Source: a virus. From it: DNA of 64,000 bases. The notes under the pieces were generated by a model that ran no database searches, was not told where the DNA came from, and saw nothing but the letters and a program-made list of their open reading frames with translations. Below, piece after piece: positions 4,890-60,461 of the stretch. Made by a program: the position numbers and the translations under genes. The stretch lies in IMG/VR virus record IMGVR_UViG_3300005289_000004, positions 1 to 64,000 of that record; one strand, given 5' to 3'. The stretch's first letter is position 1. Every line of letters begins with the position of its first letter.

Positions 4890-5297
4890 TTATTTTCGTT
4901 TAGGTTCTTTAGCCCACTGTACTATCATATCGAGTGTACCCCATTTAATACCATTCTTTTCACACCACATAGCATAGGTGGTTTTAGATTTTTTGGATAG
5001 CTTTTTATTTGGTTCTTGGAACACTATGCGTATGTCAATTTTAGGGTGCTGTTCTTTTATTAGCAGGTGTTTTTTCCTATCCGTTGTAGAAAATAAACCT
5101 TTGAGTTCCAAATGTATCTGATTATCAAGTATATAATCGGGGAGGTACAAATGTGATGTTGACGGTTTAATGTATCTAATCTTCTTATCCTTTGGTTCGT
5201 ATTCAAACTTAATCTTTGCTGTCTCTAGGATAACTTGTCCACTCGCTTCAAACGATGACCTATGACCTGTTGCTTTACCTCCGAATCGTCTTCTCAT
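4890..5297 (-). CDS. endonuclease I, T7 gp3-like Holliday junction resolvase
   Basis: 135 residues closely following phage T7 endonuclease I: SSFE near residue 15, IKFEYEPKD, YLPDYIL, HLELKG (the PD-(D/E)xK acidic residues), then DRKKHLLIKEQHP, DIRIVF and WCEKNGIKWG. It resolves branched DNA so that replicated DNA can be packaged, and in T7 it also breaks down host DNA. The ATG overlaps the end of the HNH endonuclease gene as ATGA, so the two are translationally linked. Confidence 0.95.
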   Translation of the reverse strand: MRRRFGGKATGHRSSFEASGQVILETAKIKFEYEPKDKKIRYIKPSTSHLYLPDYILDNQIHLELKGLFSTTDRKKHLLIKEQHPKIDIRIVFQEPNKKLSKKSKTTYAMWCEKNGIKWGTLDMIVQWAKEPKRK

Positions 5298-6271
5298 ACA
5301 AGTTCTAGATTGGTTGGGTTAGGGTTTACACCCCTTAATCTATCACCTAAAGTTTTTTCTTTGAGATTATATGCTTTACTAGCCTCCCTGATACTGTCAA
5401 AGAAAATTCCTGTAGTAACATCTACAACTTTTCTGGCTAAAGGCTGCTGTCTATCTGTCCCCGATGGTGTGGTTAATGCTTTACCAACGTCCCAACCTAA
5501 ACTCTTTATCCGAGTCTCAAAAACACTCCGTTCTATATTAAATTCTCTACACCATTGCGCGGATGTCTGTGTCTTACCCCTATAGGTGATGTACAAATTT
5601 CTTCTTGTGTTATTAGCTTGTTCGATTGCTGTAGCCCATCTGCAATTGGAAGGTTCATAATCTCCGTTAACATCTTCCCTTTCTATAGAGTGTTGTGGAG
5701 TAGGTTTATACCCCATGTCCTCAAGGAAGTTCTCAAAGGAGCTTAACCATCTGTCACATACTTTTATACCCCTACCTCCATAGTGGTTATAAGAGCTATT
5801 ATTAGGATTGTTACACCTATTGCGTAAGCTGCACCAAGTTATATATTCTGTAGTGTTATCTTTACTGTGTCCATGTGTTTTTCGAGTTTTCTTAGTATTG
5901 TGTGTACAATTGTGCTTACAAAACTTAGTATTACCTGATTTTACGTTTGAAAATAATGTTGAAAACTCATTACCACACTTACATTTAAAATGTCCGTAGC
6001 TTATATTACCTACAACATCCCCCAAATAAATACAGTTTCCAACCTCAGTGTTTTTAACTCTTTGATATTTTCTTTTAGACCTGTTTCTTAGACAACCACA
6101 GCTTTTTGTTTTGTTTTTTACCACCCTATATACGTCTGTTTCAAACAAGTTACTACAATTGCATAAAAACTGAGCCTTATGACTATCTGTTTTGGAGTCC
6201 ACATATTTTACAAAAGTACAGGAGCCTACTATATCACCCTCTTTAAAATTTAAATATTTGTTGTTTGCCAT
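5294..6271 (-). CDS. HNH homing endonuclease
   Basis: 325 residues. The N-terminal half has paired cysteine knuckles (CNC/CGC; CKCGNEF; FCKHNC). The HNH region near 140-215 reads YITWCSLRNRCNNP, YGGRGIKVCDRW, SIEREDVNGDY and NCRWA, typical of phage HNH endonucleases. The C-terminus has a NUMOD1-like helix (SIREASKAYNLKEKTLGDRL). It has its own promoter and hairpin upstream and is inserted just before the endonuclease I gene, overlapping it. It probably spreads itself between phages by cutting a related locus. Confidence 0.88.
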   Translation of the reverse strand: MANNKYLNFKEGDIVGSCTFVKYVDSKTDSHKAQFLCNCSNLFETDVYRVVKNKTKSCGCLRNRSKRKYQRVKNTEVGNCIYLGDVVGNISYGHFKCKCGNEFSTLFSNVKSGNTKFCKHNCTHNTKKTRKTHGHSKDNTTEYITWCSLRNRCNNPNNSSYNHYGGRGIKVCDRWLSSFENFLEDMGYKPTPQHSIEREDVNGDYEPSNCRWATAIEQANNTRRNLYITYRGKTQTSAQWCREFNIERSVFETRIKSLGWDVGKALTTPSGTDRQQPLARKVVDVTTGIFFDSIREASKAYNLKEKTLGDRLRGVNPNPTNLELV

Positions 6272-6272
6272 A

Positions 6273-6304
6273 TAAAAATACGGCTAACTTTTTGTGCTAG
6301 CCGT
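6273..6304 (-). terminator. rho-independent terminator, leftward
   Basis: On the minus strand ACGGCTA pairs with TAGCCGT (arms at 6298-6304 and 6280-6286), an 11-base loop, followed by a run of T (bases 6273-6279). It ends transcription from the fibre genes. A promoter -7 box lies just upstream, so RNA started there would begin inside the hairpin and lack its full left arm. Confidence 0.75.
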
Positions 6305-6306
6305 TC

Positions 6307-6337
6307 CAAAGATACTAAATAAGTTAGTAGTTACAAA
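6307..6337 (-). promoter_or_regulatory. promoter with embedded TACTAA/TTAGTA site for the HNH endonuclease gene
   Basis: Minus strand TTTG (6334-6337), a 19-base spacer, and TATCTTTG (6307-6314). The spacer carries an inverted repeat TACTAA-N5-TTAGTA (6313-6329). The same kind of repeat occurs at two other homing endonuclease leaders and in the array beside the RepL-like gene. Confidence 0.65.
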
Positions 6338-26200: not shown

Positions 26201-27004
26201 TAAGATAAACCAATCACCTAAATTATACCTGCCAGCTATACTTACCTTTTGTACCCTATCTGAGTCAATAAAGGTTTCCAGTTGGATACCGTTTACTTTT
26301 CTTGGGTCATCTCCAATTTCATCTGTAGACTCTAATTCAGGAACTGTTCTTTTAGATATTGTTCCCCAACTCGATCTCATCAAATCGAAGTACTCATTTA
26401 AATACCTGAACTGAAATAGCTTTCCTTTAATTAGGTTAGCTGTTTTTACCTCATCATTTATGTAGGTGGCTTTGATCGGCTTTAAAGGTTGAGCTTTAAG
26501 TAAGTTGAAGTCATCTGCTGTAATGGGGTCTGGGTATTCTCCTGCTTTTAGTCTGGCAATATTGATACAGTAAATCATACCGCTTATACCATCAGTCATA
26601 ACAATGTACTCTTCCCTGTAAAGTTTAACGTCTAAGAAGAAGTGGTCAGGTTGTATGTTGAATAGTTGTACTCCACCTGTATCATCCAAATCAGTAAAGA
26701 TTGTCGAAAGTTGCAGAGTATCATAGTCAAATTCCAACAAAGTATGTTTTCCTGTTGAACTGTAATCTATCCCGTATGCTTTACGAATATTTTTAAATAC
26801 TCCTACACCGATATTAGCTGATAGCCCCTCTGGTAGTTCGTGTGCAATTAGGGTATTGCCCTGAATGTTCACACCAAATCCTTCGTCGCTTCCAGATGTT
26901 CCAGTTATCCTGTAGTTATGGCTTTCCTCATACTCTGTATTATTTAGGTAGTCTGGTGCATCCTCTGTATTTAAACCTCCGTTGGGTATCTTTATCTCTT
27001 GCAT
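23228..27004 (-). CDS. large stabilisation/muzzle-like tail protein with C-terminal repeats
   Basis: 1258 residues. The first 1030 are beta-rich, with features of podoviral stabilisation or muzzle proteins: an N-terminal IPNGGLNTEDAPDYL, many Asp/Tyr segments, and GRNGLTIIDTKMSKYFHDLI near 910-930. From about residue 1035 there are two full repeats of about 85 residues (each NPFxF...SISxxGxYQINGG...GDVVKxR) and the first quarter of a third, which stops at TAA 23228-23230. It follows the ring-like connector genes, as expected for the bottom of a short tail. Confidence 0.65.
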   Translation of the reverse strand: MQEIKIPNGGLNTEDAPDYLNNTEYEESHNYRITGTSGSDEGFGVNIQGNTLIAHELPEGLSANIGVGVFKNIRKAYGIDYSSTGKHTLLEFDYDTLQLSTIFTDLDDTGGVQLFNIQPDHFFLDVKLYREEYIVMTDGISGMIYCINIARLKAGEYPDPITADDFNLLKAQPLKPIKATYINDEVKTANLIKGKLFQFRYLNEYFDLMRSSWGTISKRTVPELESTDEIGDDPRKVNGIQLETFIDSDRVQKVSIAGRYNLGDWFILKTVTKEYLTTLPTEIDLEDEVREAYDPTTGIYTFIFYNDGAYEPIPPLETDEPYDAIPRNAGTLEVIDGNVLAIADLDEGYDRPEDPNVQVSVGTTQLDLGISVTDPRDFTASMINTAPRGWGHRRQVEVIFRGDPRAGDKVTLRTDQLWGRPSTPEDFPYTANSGDNNDLDSFTTNFLNTLPNYSFVPTSGGGIPYKRKVYNSDGSISVFYITKPYFEGKGVDVVWGDVGDVNGLTKNIVKSNTSYQLTLFHFDDKGRYFPIITGSNYVANTPSYAVSEGKVPQIGWSIEGTPPEGAVSYQWGISENTKYLNTLYATALYDVDESDDEFIYLNMAFLANSAVAYDYTPTDRVILINSFDSSGEVVKWFNTPAIDLPVAGFEIKAPEVEADPIKYLLKIKKSDIIDVSDLENEILIEIYTPKNNFESVETKIFYEIGEQFDIIDGEYSVTAGTINAVDAYLKPRKFRSNVEGSNDVFAFPVEDFNFSDEYASRYWSAGRGRTYNDEVGKVRRKASIRYSEPSSIGSLTNTINKFYGARIYGDEPGETTSIYGAITKLVMSDNILVALQELKVASIPVNMAIITTQAEQDQLTISDKLLNNVRYSVGNIGTGLAKRAITVSNKGDIYFVDHNNGYPCKFGRNGLTIIDTKMSKYFHDLIKSVEPKEIILIFDDFNNELNFVITNNDGEIKVISFTSQQWEYRDSYVKTLADVTLVQPDNGTATNESGDILYTPDSGYFGDDAVSITFMDGATLITKIACIEVEEGDGEVNPFSFITLTDQTGGVLVESNEIVVAGNNVPAPISISAGGEYQINGGAWTSSAGLVSAGDVVKVRHLTSATAGDSAYSTLTIATETGTFTTVTKIPVTTPTPFTFTPVTNANLNTLQTSNGATIAGINVPVSISVVGGQYQINGGGWVSTTGTINVGDVLKLRRNSSTAYSTAVTVDVTVSSYTTSFTITTKDSIDPNPFTFTAVTNAELSTTYESNAVTLVI

Positions 27005-27724: not shown

Positions 27725-28336
27725 TTAAAGGTGTACACCGTCATTTGCACGGTCTGCTGGTAATAATGGTACAAGTAATCTGTAAGCTGCTTCAAAAGCC
27801 ATATTTTCTACTTCACTTGGTAAGGTTAGGTCTGCATCGTCGTCAGCAGGTATACTGTACTTCTCTGTTACTAATACTTGAGCTTCTGTTACTTTCTTAC
27901 CGATGAAGTACGCTTTGTTATTTTCTTTATAAAAATAGTTGATACAAGGCAAGCTAGTTTGCAGTTTATTAATGAACACTTCTTCTGTTCTTAACGGTAT
28001 GTACATTGTAGCTACCCCTGATGCAGGGTTAACTGAGTTTATGTCCAAGAACCTGTTACCTGCTATGCTAATTGATTTACCTGTAACCGTTACATACTGT
28101 AACCCTTTGGTTGCGTCTGTTGATACTGTAGCTAGATATGAGTAGGCTATACTATCATCTCCGTACTTGAAGTCTTCTAAATTACGCTGTGCAAAATAGC
28201 TGTCTCTCATTGCTTGAGCTATCCCTGCTACTACGTAACCTTTAAGTTCCCGATATGTAAAACGACTATCGTCGCCTAAATTTCCTCCATCAACTTTACG
28301 CCAAACGCGATAAACAATTTCTTTTATTGAGGACAT
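27725..28336 (-). CDS. head-tail connector / ring-like protein
   Basis: 203 residues from ATG 28336, chosen because AGGAGG lies five bases before it; an ATG five codons earlier has no such site. A helical start (IKEIVYRVWRKV) and a beta-rich middle resemble tail-tube or gateway proteins. The start overlaps the end of the GIY-YIG gene by 13 bases, so that endonuclease inserted exactly between two structural genes. Confidence 0.6.
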   Translation of the reverse strand: MSSIKEIVYRVWRKVDGGNLGDDSRFTYRELKGYVVAGIAQAMRDSYFAQRNLEDFKYGDDSIAYSYLATVSTDATKGLQYVTVTGKSISIAGNRFLDINSVNPASGVATMYIPLRTEEVFINKLQTSLPCINYFYKENNKAYFIGKKVTEAQVLVTEKYSIPADDDADLTLPSEVENMAFEAAYRLLVPLLPADRANDGVHL

Positions 28337-29232
28337 AACTCCTCCTTCCATATAAAACCGTACGAAAACTCTCTTTTGCCTGTTGTTGCCTTGCTTATGA
28401 ACGAGGGGTCGAAGTTTAGTACCCTTCCTATTTCTGCTTTATTTTTAAAACTACCTATTAAATTCATATCTTTATCATACTGATTAATTCTAATTTTAGC
28501 TAGCACAGGGCGTTCAAAACTTTCCCCCTTAAAACGCCAAACATACCCTGAACAACCTTTAAATTTTCTTGCTGCACTTAAAATTTTCCAACTTCCCACA
28601 CCTACACTTTGTGCTGCCTTCTCCGCACTTCTAAAACTTTGTACATAAACACCTTCTTGGGTGTATTGGTCAACAGCTTTATACCTGTATAGGTTTCCCT
28701 CCACAACTTTATCTATATACTCTTGAGATAATATTCTGCCTTTACGTTTTTCAGAAGCACGTTTATGAACTTCTGGGTCTCTTTTCTTCATAGCATCAGA
28801 TATTTTAGCTTTAGTCTCAGGGGAAGCCTTTCTACCAATAGCTTTTTGTCTTAATTTTTCTTTTGTTTCTTCTGAGTGCTGTTTATTATTACCTGCTGGT
28901 TTTATATTGTATCCTATTTTTTTATCTAGTGACTTGTACTTTTCTACACAAGCTATTTCAATGGCATCTAGTAGCCCTATGTTAAATGTGCTATCTTTAT
29001 GAGGTTTAAAGTACATCAACGCTTCTACTTTAAAATTATCAAACCCATATTTTCTAATAGCGTTACTAATGCTCATAGTAGGATTATTCTTAGAAGCAGT
29101 TTTATGAGTGTTTAATCGTTTTCTTAAATTTAAAGATTGTCCTATATATATCTTACCATTAGGTGCAGTTAGCTTATATACTCCGCAAACTCCAAAAGGT
29201 ATATGACTTAATCTCTTATCAATCGGACTCAT
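28324..29232 (-). CDS. GIY-YIG homing endonuclease with NUMOD domains
   Basis: 302 residues from ATG 29232. The GIY-YIG core is at residues 17-33 (GVYKL, KIYIGQS) with catalytic Arg in NLRKRL. A NUMOD3-like region (SEETKEKLRQKAIGRK, SPETKAKISDAM) and two NUMOD1-like helices (SFRSAEKAAQSVGV; SFKNKAEIGRVLNF) follow for DNA contact. It starts one base after the upstream structural gene and overlaps the downstream one. It lacks an independent promoter, so it is expressed with the virion operon. Confidence 0.93.
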   Translation of the reverse strand: MSPIDKRLSHIPFGVCGVYKLTAPNGKIYIGQSLNLRKRLNTHKTASKNNPTMSISNAIRKYGFDNFKVEALMYFKPHKDSTFNIGLLDAIEIACVEKYKSLDKKIGYNIKPAGNNKQHSEETKEKLRQKAIGRKASPETKAKISDAMKKRDPEVHKRASEKRKGRILSQEYIDKVVEGNLYRYKAVDQYTQEGVYVQSFRSAEKAAQSVGVGSWKILSAARKFKGCSGYVWRFKGESFERPVLAKIRINQYDKDMNLIGSFKNKAEIGRVLNFDPSFISKATTGKREFSYGFIWKEELCPQ

Positions 29233-36042: not shown

Positions 36043-36113
36043 GTTATCGATTTATGTTTGCAAAATTAGTTTAAATACTTGTGGTGTTTTGCTTAGGCTG
36101 AGAACTGTTACTT

Positions 36114-38168
36114 TTAGCGATAAGTTGTTATACGACCATGTTTGACAAATTTCTTTCCTTTTGGCTTATCTTTGACTTGTTTTAGGGGTTCTTTGATTGT
36201 TATGAGAGAATTTCCGTCACTTATGGCGGTATCATAATCGGTTCGGTCATTTACATCGAAGTCTAAACGGTCTTTAATTAGGCGTTTAAAGAATATTTTT
36301 TCCACATCATTGTAAGAACTCTCTACCATTTCTGTAAGATGTTCTTCTATGTACTCTTTGTTTTGTGGGGCTGCACCATACACCCAAGTCCCATCTGATC
36401 TTTGAGTTCCAAGTAAAAACTGTTCGTACCCATTTTCCTTAGCCCAATCAACCCAGTCAGTTGGCGAACGTTCTCCGAGCATTCTAACACCGTAAAACTT
36501 TAACCCCCAGTAGGTTTGCTTATGAAAATCTGGCTTATTATCCATACGACCAAGAAACATAGCTACAGGGCATCCGCTTTTTTCAGGGTCAATAATAGTG
36601 TACCTTCTTCTTATCATTATTGAGGCATCACTGCCCTTTTCTACAGTAGCATCGCTGTGTGCTATAGCATCAAGACCAGCACCGCCATAAGCAGTTCCTG
36701 TAGGTTTATACTTAGGTTTACCACCAATCTCACTTTTTTCAAACTGGTTAGGTTTATCGGGGAATTGTAGTATGTACCACAACCCTTTGGGGTCGTCTTC
36801 AAAAAATACAGTGCCATCAAACTTCTCCCTAAACCAACCTCTTCTTCCAAGTTCATCTTTTTCAGGGTCTTTACCTTCGGCTACCAATTGATCTTTTATA
36901 ACTTGTAATTGTGCTTCATGCCTTTTCCTGTCGAAGTGTATCTTCTTATTGGCACTCTCAAATACTTCTTTATCGTTCCAAGGATTCTGTCTTATCTCCT
37001 CTTCTAAGGCTTCAAGATCATTCTCCAATGCCTTTCTTGTATTAGCTTGATACTGTTTAGCACCTATAGTTGGGTCGAGGCAACCAATGGTTTCAAGATA
37101 TTTTGTCTGTTCAGGTGTTGGTGTGTCCCACACAGATTCCCCAAATGCGCCAATCCAACCGTCATACCCGAAATAAGCGGGCAACATTATACGATAAAGT
37201 CCTGTTTTTGTTTCCCCTAAGTAGTTAGCTTTAGATTGATCGCTTGACTGCCACGTAATTTGATACTCAGCTCCACCAGATTTTTTATCATTCACAGTGG
37301 TAGGCATAAATATCTTTCCAGTTATTCTAGCCCCTTTCTTGACGCACTTTGCAGCAATTGATAAGTATTTGTTGATCGGAGTTTCAGTTGGGAACTTACC
37401 CCCTTCATCGATAAGTAAGTAAGCAAGAGCATATCCATCATAAGAGTTAAGGTCTGTATTTTCCCAAGATAGTTCATTATTAAGACCCTCCCCTTTAGTG
37501 GCAGACTTTTTTGTTTTAGTTATTCTGTCTGCTTGCTTCTTTAAAGAGAGAACCTGTTTTGGTGCAGTGTTACCCTCTTGTATGGGTTTTAAAAACTCCG
37601 GTAAATTTCCCAAAGCCTTAACAGCATATTGAAAAGCCTTACCAGCATCCTTTCCCTTTTTAGATACAATACCTAAGTTAGCGTTTCTTAGGGTTAGCAT
37701 CTTTAATAGTAAGGCAGACATAATCATTGAGGTAGCCCCCAACCTACGGGCTTTTAGTAACGTATGCCCCAGACAAGTCTTTGTATTATCACATATTTCT
37801 AAAAACCTGTAATAGTAAAGGGACGTGTCTCTATATTCTGGGTACACTCCTTCGGGTAATAAAAACCAGTTGAGGAAAAAGTAAAAATAGCTGTTTATGT
37901 AGGTTGGTTCTCCGTTTACATATAACCACATTCCTGAGTTTAGTCTCTCTACCTCTTCTACCAAATAATTTACTTGATCGGGATTATCATTTAACCTATC
38001 TTCCCAACCGCCTGACCAATCAAACTTCTCGTAATCAACTACCCTTGACCATTTCTGTTTTGACTTAGGTATCCCATAGCCTCTAATATCTTTAAGAGGC
38101 GGTCTTTTAGGGAACTCGTATTTTAACCCTTCTACATAATATTCTCCATCTACCCAGATTCCTAACAT
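36114..38168 (-). CDS. terL: terminase large subunit
   Basis: 684 residues. The ATPase part has a Walker A variant KARRLGATS (about 139-147) and a Walker B LLIDEGG (about 253-259). The C-terminal nuclease part begins near 497 (GLDAIAHSDATVEKG, first Asp of the RNase H-like site), with further Asp residues towards 620-660. It drives DNA packaging and cuts the genome. The start abuts the stop of the small upstream gene by one base. Confidence 0.9.
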   Translation of the reverse strand: MLGIWVDGEYYVEGLKYEFPKRPPLKDIRGYGIPKSKQKWSRVVDYEKFDWSGGWEDRLNDNPDQVNYLVEEVERLNSGMWLYVNGEPTYINSYFYFFLNWFLLPEGVYPEYRDTSLYYYRFLEICDNTKTCLGHTLLKARRLGATSMIMSALLLKMLTLRNANLGIVSKKGKDAGKAFQYAVKALGNLPEFLKPIQEGNTAPKQVLSLKKQADRITKTKKSATKGEGLNNELSWENTDLNSYDGYALAYLLIDEGGKFPTETPINKYLSIAAKCVKKGARITGKIFMPTTVNDKKSGGAEYQITWQSSDQSKANYLGETKTGLYRIMLPAYFGYDGWIGAFGESVWDTPTPEQTKYLETIGCLDPTIGAKQYQANTRKALENDLEALEEEIRQNPWNDKEVFESANKKIHFDRKRHEAQLQVIKDQLVAEGKDPEKDELGRRGWFREKFDGTVFFEDDPKGLWYILQFPDKPNQFEKSEIGGKPKYKPTGTAYGGAGLDAIAHSDATVEKGSDASIMIRRRYTIIDPEKSGCPVAMFLGRMDNKPDFHKQTYWGLKFYGVRMLGERSPTDWVDWAKENGYEQFLLGTQRSDGTWVYGAAPQNKEYIEEHLTEMVESSYNDVEKIFFKRLIKDRLDFDVNDRTDYDTAISDGNSLITIKEPLKQVKDKPKGKKFVKHGRITTYR

Positions 38169-38584
38169 TATATCTTACCCTCAAGTCTTTGCTTCTGTAA
38201 CTGCTCAAACGGATTAGAGGTTGGGTCAATTTTTATTTGTGATTTTTTAGTTTCACCCTTTTTTGCAATATCAGGCCTGAGTGCCTCGGCCATATCCGAT
38301 ACTTTTTTAAATGAATCTATCTTCTCCACCAGCTTCATTACACGGTCGAAGGTTTTATCTTGAGCATCGTTTGATAATATAGTCAACTTTTCTAACTCTC
38401 CGTTGGTAACATGATTAATATCGTCAGTTAGTTTTACAGACAGCTCGTCAAGCGAAATCAATAGTTGTTTGATACTACTAGTTTCGAAATTTACGAGGTA
38501 GTTATGCAATTCATACAAGTAAAGGTTTATCTCTTCACTTTCAGACACTAGGTCTAATCTCAATTCAAATTTCTCTTCGTTCAT
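38168..38584 (-). CDS. hypothetical protein at the small-terminase position
   Basis: 138 residues from ATG 38584, helical and acidic, with the conserved-looking end TSNPFEQLQKQRLEGKI. It directly precedes terL and shares one base with its start, which suggests a packaging partner such as the small terminase, but no DNA-binding helix-turn-helix is obvious. Function inferred from location only. Confidence 0.5.
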   Translation of the reverse strand: MNEEKFELRLDLVSESEEINLYLYELHNYLVNFETSSIKQLLISLDELSVKLTDDINHVTNGELEKLTILSNDAQDKTFDRVMKLVEKIDSFKKVSDMAEALRPDIAKKGETKKSQIKIDPTSNPFEQLQKQRLEGKI

Positions 38585-38589
38585 AATTT

Positions 38590-39402
38590 TTATATTCTTT
38601 TCCAAACATACCCCCAAGCCTTGAGTGGCTCTTTGTCTTTCCTAAATTTGTCTATAACATCATCTAAATAGCACACTCCATGTTTACCCTTACCAAAATA
38701 TCTACATGCTTCTATTTTAGATGGGAAAGTTTTATACAGCTCACCTGTTAAATCGTAACATGCTATCTCTACACAATCTGGATGATTATTAAAAGTTTTT
38801 GCTTTCTGCTTTAATAGAATATCCTCCCGCTCTTTTTTCCAGTTGTGTGGTTCTCTGCTGAAAAATAAGTGTTTCCACCCTCTGGCTTCTCCCCTTAGAG
38901 TTCCGCTTACTCTGGCTTGGTTAGCGCCTAACATACGCCTAACTTCGCAAGCACTTTCAAACTCCCCCAAGATTTGATCTGTATTCATATCTATTGCATA
39001 TATCAAACCTCGAAATTTATGGTTGTCTTTACCCCAATTAGCTGGCCCTCTCCTTCCACCTAAACATAAGTTATAGTTAAAATCTGCGTCTACCCACGCT
39101 TGATCTACCATATTTTCCTCCGCTAAGTAGGCTTCATCTTCGGTATCAAATAATTGTAGGTTTTCTCTTTTAAAATTTTTATAACCGTATTTAAGGACAG
39201 CATTTATAAAACAGGTTTTACCTTTTCTTTCTATAATTCTAACTTTTTCTCTTATAGCATCTGCGTCTGAGGTTACTCCATCTCCAATATACTTGTCGTG
39301 TAATTTGTTTGAAGCATGTACTCCTACGTAAATTTTTCCGTTGATTAAATTTGTCGTTTTATAAAGTATGTTATATTTCTTATCTTGTTTTGATGCCCCC
39401 AT
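38590..39402 (-). CDS. GIY-YIG homing endonuclease
   Basis: 270 residues from ATG 39402. The core reads YNILYKTTNLINGKIYVGVHAS, a GIY-YIG variant. Two helical DNA-contact repeats follow (SACEVRRMLGANQARVSGTL; SKIEACRYFGKGKHG), and the C-terminus is AWGYVWK. It sits between the GroES-like gene and the terminase block, behind a hairpin with a palindromic TAGTA-TTT-TACTA site, so it is probably an inserted free-standing mobile gene with its own regulation. Confidence 0.88.
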   Translation of the reverse strand: MGASKQDKKYNILYKTTNLINGKIYVGVHASNKLHDKYIGDGVTSDADAIREKVRIIERKGKTCFINAVLKYGYKNFKRENLQLFDTEDEAYLAEENMVDQAWVDADFNYNLCLGGRRGPANWGKDNHKFRGLIYAIDMNTDQILGEFESACEVRRMLGANQARVSGTLRGEARGWKHLFFSREPHNWKKEREDILLKQKAKTFNNHPDCVEIACYDLTGELYKTFPSKIEACRYFGKGKHGVCYLDDVIDKFRKDKEPLKAWGYVWKRI

Positions 39403-39413
39403 ATAAATAAAAA

Positions 39414-39474
39414 TGCACACTAGTGGTTTAAACTGTGTGCAAATATAATCAATAAAGGGGGTAGTATTTTACTA
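39414..39474 (-). promoter_or_regulatory. leader of the GIY-YIG gene: palindromic site, -7 box and hairpin
   Basis: In leftward order: the 13-base palindrome TAGTATTTTACTA (39462-39474); a TATATTTG box (39440-39447) without a clear -33 partner at N20; and a hairpin TGCACAC/GTGTGCA (39414-39441, 14-base loop) followed by ATTTTT. The hairpin is also a plausible terminator for the GroES-like genes. Confidence 0.55.
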
Positions 39475-39482
39475 GGCTATCA

Positions 39483-50741: not shown

Positions 50742-50769
50742 GAAATTACTAAAAATTTTAGTATCTTTG
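50738..50769 (+). promoter_or_regulatory. promoter with overlapping TACTAAAA/TTTTAGTA palindrome
   Basis: TTAG (50738-50741), 20 bases, TATCTTTG (50762-50769). The 17-base palindrome TACTAAAAATTTTAGTA (50747-50763) overlaps spacer and box. Fires into the homing endonuclease gene behind the polymerase. Confidence 0.65.
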
Positions 50770-50873: not shown

Positions 50874-51803
50874 ATGACACGCTCAGAAGAAATTTTAAAT
50901 GGGTTCAACGAAACTCATAACTACAAATACACCTATCCTAATTACGGTGCTAAGAACCTTCAAGAAAAAGTTACAATCGTCTGTCCTGAACACGGAGAGT
51001 TTGTTAAGTTCGGATATTGCCATTTGAGAAGAAAGCAAGGATGCCCCAAGTGTTCGCACATTGGTTTGTCAAGGTATACAGAAGAGGAGTTCATGGATAG
51101 CCTAATTAAAACTCACGGTTATCCGTTACCTTTTGAAATTTTGTCTCCGTATGTGGGTAATAAGGATGACATTATGATTAAGGATAAGTATGGTATTTGC
51201 AAAACTAAACCCTATAACCTTACACGAACCTCTTATGGTTCCTTACGAACTGCCGTAGATAAAACTGCGTACATGATTGCCAAGTTTAATGAAAAACACA
51301 ACTTCAAATACACTTACGACAATTTTGTGTACAAAGGTAATAGGGTACTAGGTACAGTCACTTGCCCTGAGCATGGGGATTTTGAACAGTTGGTGGATGT
51401 ACACTTAATGGGTTGTGGATGCCCTAAATGTGCAGACTCTAATAAGGTAAGCGGCTACGGGAGAAATGATTACATAAGGGTTTGTAAAGAAAGGGAGGCA
51501 AGTTTATACATCATATGCTGTTACAGCGAGGATGAGTTCTTTGTTAAAGTGGGTATTACATCTACAGGAGTGAATAAAAGATTTAGAGACAGAAGTGCGA
51601 TGCCCTATGAATTTTCTTCATTATTTGAAACTATAGGTGATCCTGCTGAAATTTGGGATTTAGAACTGAGCTTGAAAAGAAAATATAAAGGCAATACATA
51701 CCTGCCACAAGTTTATTTCAAAGGACAGACAGAATGCTTTACTTTTGAGACAGCAGAAAAAATGATTGAAGAAATTAAAAATAAATTTGTAAATGCGACA
51801 TAG
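50874..51803 (+). CDS. free-standing homing endonuclease (GIY-YIG-like, zinc repeats)
   Basis: 309 residues. Two zinc-binding units precede a nuclease-like part: unit one near 1-60 (CPEHGEF, GCPKC) and unit two near 140-190 (CPEHGDF, GCPKC). Residues about 208-260 (ASLYIICCYSEDEFFVKVGI, then NKRFRDRS) resemble a degenerate GIY-YIG core. It is a mobile gene next to the polymerase, with a leader of its own. Confidence 0.75.
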   Translation: MTRSEEILNGFNETHNYKYTYPNYGAKNLQEKVTIVCPEHGEFVKFGYCHLRRKQGCPKCSHIGLSRYTEEEFMDSLIKTHGYPLPFEILSPYVGNKDDIMIKDKYGICKTKPYNLTRTSYGSLRTAVDKTAYMIAKFNEKHNFKYTYDNFVYKGNRVLGTVTCPEHGDFEQLVDVHLMGCGCPKCADSNKVSGYGRNDYIRVCKEREASLYIICCYSEDEFFVKVGITSTGVNKRFRDRSAMPYEFSSLFETIGDPAEIWDLELSLKRKYKGNTYLPQVYFKGQTECFTFETAEKMIEEIKNKFVNAT

Positions 51804-52064: not shown

Positions 52065-52993
52065 ATTACCTAGATACCCAGATTCAATATTACGAAAACG
52101 ATATACGCAAAACCAAGCCCATCGGAGTTTGTACACTAGGGCAGTTATTAGCCAGCATACGTAACCCTAAACAGGAAGTCTTAGAAAGGTTCAAGGAGAT
52201 TGCTAAAGCCAGTTCAGACGGAGATAAGAAGTTGAAAGACGAACTTAAATCTAAACTGTGGTATTTTACACCTTGTATATACAGCAAAGGAAACAACAGA
52301 ACCTACGAAGACATAGATCACTGGACAGCTGTTATGGTTTTAGATTTTGATAATCTGGAACAAGAGTTAGCGGTTGAATTAAGAGATTGGCTGTTTGAAA
52401 ATTATTCCTGTGTTGTAGCTAGTATGTTATCTAGTTCCCGTAAGGGTGTTAAATGTTTTGTGAGGATTCCAGAGGTTATCAGTGTGGAAGAGTTTAAACT
52501 GTATTTTTATGGGATAGCTTCTGAGATGCAGTATATTGTCGGGTTCGACCATACTACTCAAAATAGCGCATTGGCTTTCTACCTCACCTACGACTATGAC
52601 ATAAAGGTTCGGGAAGACGCAACTGAATGGACACAGACAGGTTATAAGCTAGACGAGTTTAAGCAGTGGGAAGGTGGAGAGATTATACCAATTGACGATG
52701 TAACAGAACAAGACAGGGAAGAAATAATAAAACAGCTAACCTGTATGTACGCAAATATAACTGATAATGGGCATATTCCAAATCGAAGCGCAGGACTCCT
52801 CATGGGGGGTTATATCGGTTCGGGGTACTTTACTTATGACGAAGCAGTTGACATACTAGATGAGCTAATTGACAATACAAGCTATCTACAAGCTAAACCA
52901 AGAACGTACAAGACCACTACACGACAGATGTTAAAAATTGGCAGTAAGTCCCCCCTATACCTAACCCGACACGAACACTTATATGAAGCCTAA
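52061..52993 (+). CDS. primase-like protein with BT4734/VirE N-terminal domain
   Basis: 310 residues from ATG 52061. The core (FTPCIYSKGNNRTYEDIDHW, VMVLDFDNLE with a DxD pair, SSSRKGVKCFVRIP) is the BT4734/VirE-N fold, related to archaeo-eukaryotic primases and common in Bacteroidota mobile elements. A helical C-terminus (RSAGLLMGGYIGSGYFTYDE) may be the helicase-contact part. It likely makes primers for replication with the DnaB-like helicase. Confidence 0.72.
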   Translation: MNYLDTQIQYYENDIRKTKPIGVCTLGQLLASIRNPKQEVLERFKEIAKASSDGDKKLKDELKSKLWYFTPCIYSKGNNRTYEDIDHWTAVMVLDFDNLEQELAVELRDWLFENYSCVVASMLSSSRKGVKCFVRIPEVISVEEFKLYFYGIASEMQYIVGFDHTTQNSALAFYLTYDYDIKVREDATEWTQTGYKLDEFKQWEGGEIIPIDDVTEQDREEIIKQLTCMYANITDNGHIPNRSAGLLMGGYIGSGYFTYDEAVDILDELIDNTSYLQAKPRTYKTTTRQMLKIGSKSPLYLTRHEHLYEA

Positions 52994-53351
52994 CAGATTA
53001 AAAGTATACAACAAATACGGAGGAAAGTGCGCTTACTGTGGTACAGATATACAGTTTAAAGATATGCAGGTTGACCACGTTATACCTCAATGGAGAGGTG
53101 GTAGCCATAGCAGAGCAATTCCTGTAGACGAAATACACTGTGAAGACAACTACATGCCTAGCTGTAGATCGTGTAACAACTACAAATCAGGGAATCCGTT
53201 AGAAGTTTTTAGAAAATCTATAGAGAACCAGATTGAAATATTAAGAAGAGACAGGCCAACTTTCAGACTAGCTGAGAGATATGGACTAATTGAATGCAAA
53301 CCTAAACCTGTAATATTTTACTATGAAGGATATACCACAACAATTCCTTAA
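52983..53351 (+). CDS. HNH endonuclease
   Basis: 122 residues. CAYC and MPSCRSCNN zinc pairs frame DHVIPQWRGG, the core HNH residues, with NYKSGNP after. A compact HNH nuclease without DNA-recognition repeats, overlapping the primase-like gene; could be a packaging or recombination nuclease rather than a homing enzyme. Confidence 0.85.
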   Translation: MKPNRLKVYNKYGGKCAYCGTDIQFKDMQVDHVIPQWRGGSHSRAIPVDEIHCEDNYMPSCRSCNNYKSGNPLEVFRKSIENQIEILRRDRPTFRLAERYGLIECKPKPVIFYYEGYTTTIP

Positions 53352-58532: not shown

Positions 58533-58783
58533 TTCCAAAAAAATTTTATATAAGTGTCTGTTGGGGACTATCCCATATATTAAGCGACTCCCGTATCAAT
58601 GGGGGCAAGTAGGGGCGGCCTCTTCAATCTCAATCTCAAGTCGGATAAACATTACCTAAGCTACCCGTATCAAGCTATATAAGGGCAATGGCAAGTCTAA
58701 AGCTATCCAGATAATACATTATACATCTGATCTTAGATCGTTGCGTGTTGGCTTTCTTATTGTGCTGTATTGAGGGGGAAATG
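58533..58783. other. convergent intergenic region
   Basis: 250 bases between two converging genes. No ORF. Short C-run/G-run inverted segments and the G-runs near 58601-58616 are visible; no clear terminator with T-run. Confidence 0.4.
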
Positions 58784-59242
58784 TTATTCGTTCTCACCTT
58801 GCAGTTTGATTAACAATGCTAATCCATCAGTCTTTAATACTTGCGCTCTAGTCTTTCTATCTCCTTTCCAAAATACATGCGGATTGATCGTATAGTTCCC
58901 AAAGCTACCAGTAATTAAACCTTTCTTAATAAGGCTCTTTATATTCTTACTGATGTTGGTCAACCCTATATTCAACTCTTTACATATCTCTATACGTGAT
59001 GCTGTGGTTAGCTGTACAACTCCTGTATTGTACTCAGCTACTTCGCAGAACTTTACCAATAACTTTAAGTCGGATAGCTTAGTAAGTCCGTACAATGAAC
59101 TGATAAACTTTGTGTACGTCATAAAGAACTCCTCTGTTTCTATCTTAACATTAAACTGTTTGGTTGTTTCGATCAACCTTACTTCTCCTGTTTCGTAATC
59201 TACTGTTTCTGTGGTCTGTGATTGTGTTGTGAACTTTGCCAT
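58784..59242 (-). CDS. RepL-like winged-helix replication initiator or regulator
   Basis: 152 residues. The helix-turn-helix near 75-120 (SRIEICKELNIGLTNISKNI, KSLIKKGLITGSFGNYTINP) and the closing NPHVFWKGDRKTR fit the RepL wHTH family. It is transcribed against its neighbours and faces a TACTA/TAGTA site array at 59261-59388, so it probably binds there, either to initiate replication or to control transcription. Confidence 0.7.
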   Translation of the reverse strand: MAKFTTQSQTTETVDYETGEVRLIETTKQFNVKIETEEFFMTYTKFISSLYGLTKLSDLKLLVKFCEVAEYNTGVVQLTTASRIEICKELNIGLTNISKNIKSLIKKGLITGSFGNYTINPHVFWKGDRKTRAQVLKTDGLALLIKLQGENE

Positions 59243-59260: not shown

Positions 59261-59388
59261 TTAGTAACAAAGATACTACTAAATAGTACGTGTATTTACT
59301 AAGGGTTAGTAAGCGGTTTACTATTCTCTAGTATTTAAATACTAATAATTCGGTGTAGAATACTAATCTCTAGTACTACGTTACTAAT
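59261..59388. repeat. TACTA/TAGTA site array (putative iterons or operators)
   Basis: In 128 bases at least nine TACTA or TAGTA units: TTAGTAAC (59261), TACTAAATAGTA (59277-59288), TTACTAA-GGG-TTAGTAA (59296-59312), TTTACTA (59317-59323), the perfect palindrome TAGTATTTAAATACTA (59329-59344), TACTAAT (59361), CTAGTA (59370), TTACTAAT (59381). A TATCTTTG box (minus, 59268-59275) for the RepL-like gene lies within it. Confidence 0.7.
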
Positions 59389-59389
59389 G

Positions 59390-60461
59390 GGTATCATTCA
59401 TTTAGTTGTAATACAGGCAGTTATAAAACCTCTCTATCTTATCTAATTAGGTATTATTTATTAATGCTAGGTTGTTGGTTCACTTTTCTGAACCTGTTGA
59501 AATCCTTACTGTACACTAAGCTACTAACAGTTTCTTTTATTCATGCGGTGTAGCATACGTACTCACGATAGTTTAAATGCGGTTTATGAAAAGCTGTGAA
59601 GAGGTCAGTTTTAGCTAGTAATTTACACTAAGTAGGGTATTTTAGCTGTTTTATAGTGGGATTTGGGGAAATTTGATGTGTAATGTGTGCATGAGAGACG
59701 AATAGTGCCTTTGTCCTTATCTCCCTTATCACTATTTGAAGCTATCCTAATCTATTGTATTACCTATTTAAACCCCCACATCGTCACTTTGTCCATGCAT
59801 TTGTCTATGCTCCCACTTTAAACCGTCCTCTTTACCTATCTGTATTCATGCTGGCTGTCTTACTTACGTATGTTAGGCTTATCCCCTTTTATTCTCTGGT
59901 TAGCTTAGCACGTGTAATTATAGAAGATTCGTTCTAATTTCGGGATTATAGTCTGTTTGTTCTATATTATGTTGAGGTGTACTATTCAGCTAGTACAGTT
60001 AGTAGTCATTCTGTTTAAACATGTAATCATTTGGTTACCTATTCCTTAACTGTTATGTTGTATACATAGGTTATTACTATTATCAGTTGGTTAGCTTATA
60101 AGGTGCAATGTTATTCGGTTAGCTATTCACTTAAAATTATTATCTCTCATTTTCAGACAGTTACATTTTATTTGAAAATATTTATTGCTATTTGTTTGGT
60201 TTGCCTAATAATCCTTTGTATGTTTGTTATGTCGTTAGTGATTAACGCAATCAGATAGGCAACTGTAAAGGTCATTCCGCAAAGCTAGGGTAATAATATA
60301 GCATAAGGTAAAGCATACCGACTGTACAAATGCATCTTCGTGTAATGTAGCTTAGTTAACTAATATGGTTAGCTGATCAGTTCAAAGCCTGAGAAAGTAA
60401 TTACAGTTTTGTAATGAACAAATACAGATGACACAAACAGAAACTTTTAAACTTAAATATT
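59390..60461. other. gene-free stretch with four GGTTAGCT copies
   Basis: 1.07 kb without a convincing gene on either strand (a 60-codon ORF at 59755 lacks support). It contains four plus-strand GGTTAGCT copies (59898, 60089, 60117, 60367). With the adjacent RepL-like gene and site array it is the best candidate for a replication origin or control region. Confidence 0.55.

Follow-up and report, generated by a model that had tools for sequence, protein, structure and literature searches.

A TACTA/TAGTA half-site array over the promoter of a RepL-like gene in a Bacteroidota phage: a candidate autoregulatory operator and its relation to three homing endonuclease leaders

RepL-family proteins are plasmid replication proteins whose origins and control are poorly understood, and their genes serve as a marker of putative phage-plasmids. 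In the phage genome considered here, a RepL-like gene diverges from a dense array of TACTA and TAGTA pentamers, and dyads of the same two pentamers are found in the leaders of three free-standing homing endonuclease genes. The locus raises the question of what the array controls, and of whether a single winged-helix protein could govern both the start of replication and the timing of mobile-gene expression, as was proposed in a first-pass annotation. The array and the three leader sequences quoted in that annotation are all present where it had placed them.

The window, that is the whole stretch of DNA that was analysed, comprises bases 1–64000 of a 75,640-base viral record (IMGVR_UViG_3300005289_000004). 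A direct terminal repeat of ~130 bases (contig positions 1–129 and 75512–75640) indicates that the genome is probably complete in this record. Portal and terminase share 21–29% identity with those of podoviruses of Cellulophaga, Flavobacterium, Maribacter and Tenacibaculum (Pachyviridae/Pervagoviridae relatives), and judged by these two proteins the phage is a Bacteroidota phage that is placed with this group. The nearest relative found was IMGVR_UViG_3300013102_000007 (hereafter G001), which has a terminase identity of 46%, is largely collinear with this phage and ends in a terminal repeat of 123 bases. Rfam gave no match in the window.

The array and the repL promoter

The array (59262–59386) contains 13 TACTA/TAGTA half-sites of alternating orientation at a mean pitch of ~10.75–11 bp. 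Between 0.40 and 0.57 half-sites would be expected in its 125 bp (Poisson P ~1e-13 or less), a density that rules out a chance cluster and bears out the earlier description of a dense array of inverted sites beside the RepL-like gene. A terminator was also considered and rejected. The unit of the array is TACTA-N5-TAGTA, of which there are four exact copies 21–42 bp apart (59274–59288, 59297–59311, 59319–59333 and 59361–59375), together with a half unit TACTA at 59340–59344, where the partner position reads TCGGT, and another at 59382–59386 that forms the outer end of the array. When exact and half copies are taken together there is one unit per 21–23 bp, equivalent to two helical turns, and the gaps across unit boundaries range between 11 and 13 bp. 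No exact TACTA-N5-TAGTA occurs outside the array in the whole 75.6-kb contig, and a search of IMG/VR with the array pattern returned eight unrelated matches, none of which had a RepL match that exceeded the cut-off.

The repL promoter (59268–59306, minus strand) lies wholly within the array: the first exact unit overlaps its -7 box, TATCTTTG (59275–59268), and the second overlaps its upstream (-33) element, ACCCTTAGTAAATACA. The usual upstream element is a -33 TTG, in place of which stands A(G/C)CCTAnnTAAAATAC, the approximate consensus of a matrix trained on five other promoters of the phage with repL left out; the -7 box TAnnTTTG lies 31 bases from the start of this consensus. With the five-promoter matrix the repL promoter was the best held-out site in the contig (22.0 bits). 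TAnnTTTG is the -7 box reported for Bacteroidota sigma-A promoters (PMC9723704). Promoters that combine A(G/C)CCTAnnTAAAATAC with TAnnTTTG form a phage-specific class that precedes structural genes and repL (sites at 36099, 33599, 20765, 13500, 12452, 39478 and 59306, all on the minus strand), and this class may be transcribed with the help of a phage activator.

The RepL-like protein and its proposed operator

The gene divergent from the array (58784–59242, minus strand) encodes a protein of 152 amino acids with a putative winged-helix region at about residues 67–111. The translation matched PF05732 over residues 9–137 (E=2e-6; 27.9 bits against a cut-off of 20.3) and has in its HTH region the sequence INPHVFWKG, a form of the ΦNPX5G motif that has been reported for RepL plasmids (PMC5779722). 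HTH_27 and other HTH profiles fell just below cut-off, and an AlphaFold2 single-sequence model was poor (pLDDT 47.5). By its Pfam match and motif, the product is a genuine RepL-family protein, as had first been surmised. A Pfam match over most of its length, the ΦNPX5G motif and its setting in a Bacteroidota phage are features in common with the family; it differs in being very divergent, with no close RepL relatives recovered, at the sensitivity of the searches, from IMG/VR, GTDB contigs, phages or plasmids, and in having its own promoter covered by a dense inverted array, a feature that we did not find described in the literature searched. Within the terminase group of this phage, six phage records and 16 viral contigs, many of which are fragments, gave no PF05732 match, and RepL was undetected in G001. 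Given this distribution, repL is an accessory gene in this phage, outside the core of its phage relatives. A repL gene is also present in p-crAssphage, a putative phage-plasmid (PMC11652158, PMC10136315).

The array adjoins a noncoding region of ~1.1 kb (59390–60461), which is a possible origin region. Degenerate GGTTAGCT repeats lie at 59898, 60089, 60117 and 60367 of the window and could be a second set of origin sites. A 1.4-kb noncoding stretch likewise precedes the homologous downstream gene in G001, and words common to the noncoding regions of the two phages were no more numerous than expected by chance. GC skew showed a single local dip at 58–60 kb; it tracks gene direction and is therefore uninformative on the origin. 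A further noncoding stretch of 250 bases, with repeated CCCGTATCAA, is found at 58533–58783 of the window, downstream of repL and of the preceding gene alike.

We propose that the array is an operator array through which the RepL-like protein controls its own gene, and that it possibly doubles as an initiator site; this is the reading that we favour and consider fairly probable. As the repL promoter is inside the array, binding of RepL should block transcription, which makes autorepression the economical inference. RepL dimers would sit on the TACTA-N5-TAGTA units, one per two helical turns, and occupancy of the array would cover the -33 and -7 elements and shut off repL, resulting in autoregulation of the replication protein. 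The complex of RepL with the array might also be the initiator assembly, placed next to the noncoding region. The searches recovered no relative in which repL and the array occur together, so that it is adjacency that pairs the array with the protein. Iteron-controlled origins have self-repressing Rep proteins, for example RepE of the F plasmid, and the locus resembles these in having repeated sites that adjoin and cover the rep promoter and, on our proposal, autorepression. It differs from them in that its half-sites are inverted and alternate in orientation, whereas iterons are tandem direct repeats of one size and orientation, and in that its role as an origin is putative.

Endonuclease genes and their leaders

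The number of free-standing endonuclease genes (HNH or GIY-YIG) in this one 75-kb genome is at least seven, and three of them have a TACTA/TAGTA dyad in the leader. The first, an HNH endonuclease gene (5294–6271, minus strand; phrog_374, E=2.5e-58), sits between its leader and the endonuclease I gene (4890–5297; PF05367). Its TACTA-N7-TAGTA dyad (6313–6329, minus strand) overlaps the -7 box TATCTTTG (6314–6307), and a 9-bp RNA hairpin (6280–6304, minus strand; -13.8 kcal/mol, z=-5.3) followed by a T run lies between promoter and start codon. The second gene (38590–39420, minus strand) encodes a GIY-YIG/NUMOD-type homing endonuclease (phrog_314, E=9e-25; TIGR01453 below cut-off), the true start of which may be the ATG at 39402. 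It is preceded by a promoter of the structural-gene type, AGCCTAGTAAAATAC-31-TATATTTG (39440–39478, minus strand), and its dyad is everted, TAGTA-N3-TACTA (39462–39474), and located within the upstream element of that promoter. The third gene, behind the DNA polymerase gene (50874–51803, plus strand; phrog_681, E=5e-39), has a structured leader (z=-3.4) and a TACTA-N7-TAGTA dyad (50747–50763, plus strand) that overlaps the -7 box TATCTTTG (50762–50769). The leaders of the first and third genes were the most structured among those folded in the genome. Each of the three endonucleases falls in a PHROG family of its own, and the two that were compared showed no similarity. No dyad was found at the start of at least four further endonuclease genes: a GIY-YIG gene without a leader of its own (28324–29231, minus strand; phrog_314, E=5e-27; TIGR01453 above cut-off), an HNH gene (52983–53351, plus strand; phrog_2118, E=2e-36) and those at contig positions 67253–67708 and 71503–72390. 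These four also have no recognisable TAnnTTTG promoter of their own.

In T4, free-standing homing endonucleases are inserted behind resident promoters, with a hairpin between promoter and start codon (PMC2988022). Comparison with G001 points to similar events here. At the corresponding positions G001 has neither repL nor the array, nor counterparts of the endonucleases at 5294 and 38590, and it keeps promoter–hairpin leaders before its endonuclease I gene and before the small gene adjoining terminase. In front of the G001 endonuclease I gene stand TTAGTAACTTTG, a hairpin and a T run, and this leader is best matched by the one before the HNH endonuclease gene that begins at 6271 (score 59.0, with 43.5 as the highest score among shuffles); by eye, four of the nine hairpin pairs at 6280–6304 are changed on both sides relative to G001 with pairing kept. 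At the second locus, the GroES gene of G001 is followed by a promoter, a hairpin, a T run and then the counterpart of 38168–38617, with no endonuclease. Alignment of the 39447 leader with this G001 counterpart did not rise above shuffles, and homology is mainly a matter of synteny and layout. A counterpart of the 50747 leader was not found in G001. Since the leaders exist in G001 without the endonucleases, two endonucleases would have captured resident leaders by inserting behind them; read from the sequences, leader capture of the T4 type is seen in two of the three cases, with clear sequence homology for the 6314 leader only. The likeness to T4 lies in the insertion behind resident promoters and in the hairpin between promoter and start; the differences are that the promoters here are Bacteroidota TAnnTTTG promoters and that the hairpin is at the 5' end of the transcript and leaves the start codon uncovered. 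In the window at 6280–6304 and 39415–39440, and in G001 at 26358 and 54424 (minus strand), a promoter is directly followed by a stable hairpin, then by a T run and the start codon; this hairpin type is shared with G001 genes other than homing endonucleases.

Alternative readings of the dyads

The first-pass annotation took the array and the three leaders to share one motif and proposed that the RepL-like protein controls the endonucleases. A scan of the genome gave a divided answer: outside the array, dyads were at chance level genome-wide (7 against 7.05 expected; an N7 dyad at 29064, within a coding region, is one such chance occurrence), whereas noncoding DNA contained four against 0.58 expected (p=0.005). 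Three of the 21 non-repL promoters have a dyad and all three are endonuclease promoters (p ~8e-5 against shuffled windows, each of which had a dyad in 0.4% of cases; Fisher 7.5e-4), in a test that was post hoc, with n=3 and with sites that the annotation had chosen beforehand. Among all 512 pentamer classes, TACTA was the sole G/C-containing class that recurred in three promoters. The clustering of dyads at the three endonuclease promoters is more than noise, and its improbability by chance counts against the operator reading that we favour.

One explanation, which we put forward tentatively and think unlikely, is that the RepL-like protein binds half-sites singly and with variable spacing, and represses the three endonuclease promoters as well as that of repL, the endonucleases being released once RepL drops or once replicating origins titrate it. 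These four promoters are the only ones among 22 with TACTA dyads. The repL, 6314 and 50762 promoters have TAGTA at position -3 from the -7 box, and the latter two have TACTA at -15 from it, while the gaps of 11–13 bp between units show that spacing varies in the array itself. The motif also appears to be genome-specific, as the endonuclease families differ and the dyad was found in 0 of 82 leaders of endonuclease relatives. Carriage of the dyad by endonuclease-borne cassettes was rejected on the result for these 82 leaders. Among the IMG/VR matches listed for TACTA-N-TAGTATCTTTG, most were coding, and of the few promoter-like ones examined none was seen to precede an endonuclease.

Several observations argue against such a regulon. 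No one operator unit is common to all its target promoters: the spacing is N5 in the array, N7 at 6313 and 50747 and an everted N3 at 39462, and N7 in the TACTA to TAGTA polarity never occurs within the array. The 39462–39474 dyad is the middle of AGCCTAGTAAAATACTACC, in a promoter to which a matrix trained without this site gave 17.5 bits, and we judge it a by-product of the promoter element common to structural genes. In the G001 endonuclease I leader, TAGTA is already present at the -7 box, and since G001 has no repL this pentamer is either older than repL in the lineage or unconnected with it; the G001 leader does not have the TACTA half of the 6313 dyad (at -15), which counts against the operator reading that we favour. 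The four motif-free endonuclease genes and the post hoc sample of three promoters weigh further against the regulon. The earlier proposal thus holds as to which promoters have dyads and does not hold as to their geometry, and it is doubtful that a RepL-family initiator also represses the promoters of resident homing endonucleases and so couples mobile-gene expression to the replication programme. If the array is the operator of repL as we propose, the endonuclease dyads would fall outside the operator unit, two of them within captured resident promoter–hairpin leaders in which half-sites coincide with promoter boxes. The Omega repressor of pSM19035, a ribbon-helix-helix protein associated with heptad repeats, is comparable in that arrays of short sites lie over promoters and one protein serves copy number and other genes; its fold and its heptad repeats set it apart.

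Another possibility is that the array is the operator of a regulator other than RepL, either a host protein or another phage protein, and that RepL is merely regulated. The searches gave no homolog pair in which co-evolution could be followed, and P1 RepL uses an origin believed to be internal to the repL gene itself (PMC9948254), so that binding to upstream DNA is not a requirement for RepL. A small winged-helix protein encoded next to sites that overlap its promoter is, however, the usual signature of an autoregulator, and the unit is found nowhere else in the genome; we consider this possibility quite improbable. It is very improbable that the endonuclease dyads are self-operators in the manner of I-TevI, which binds an operator overlapping its own late promoter (PMC2988022), as endonucleases of different families would need one common pentamer and the leaders of their relatives are without the dyad.

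The regulon, if true, would to our knowledge be the first case in which the timing of endonuclease expression is tied to a replication initiator. Should RepL bind the array, the locus would provide a model of how a Bacteroidota phage restrains an initiator of the RepL type. The comparison of leaders points to capture of resident promoter–hairpin leaders by homing endonucleases in these phages, as in T4.
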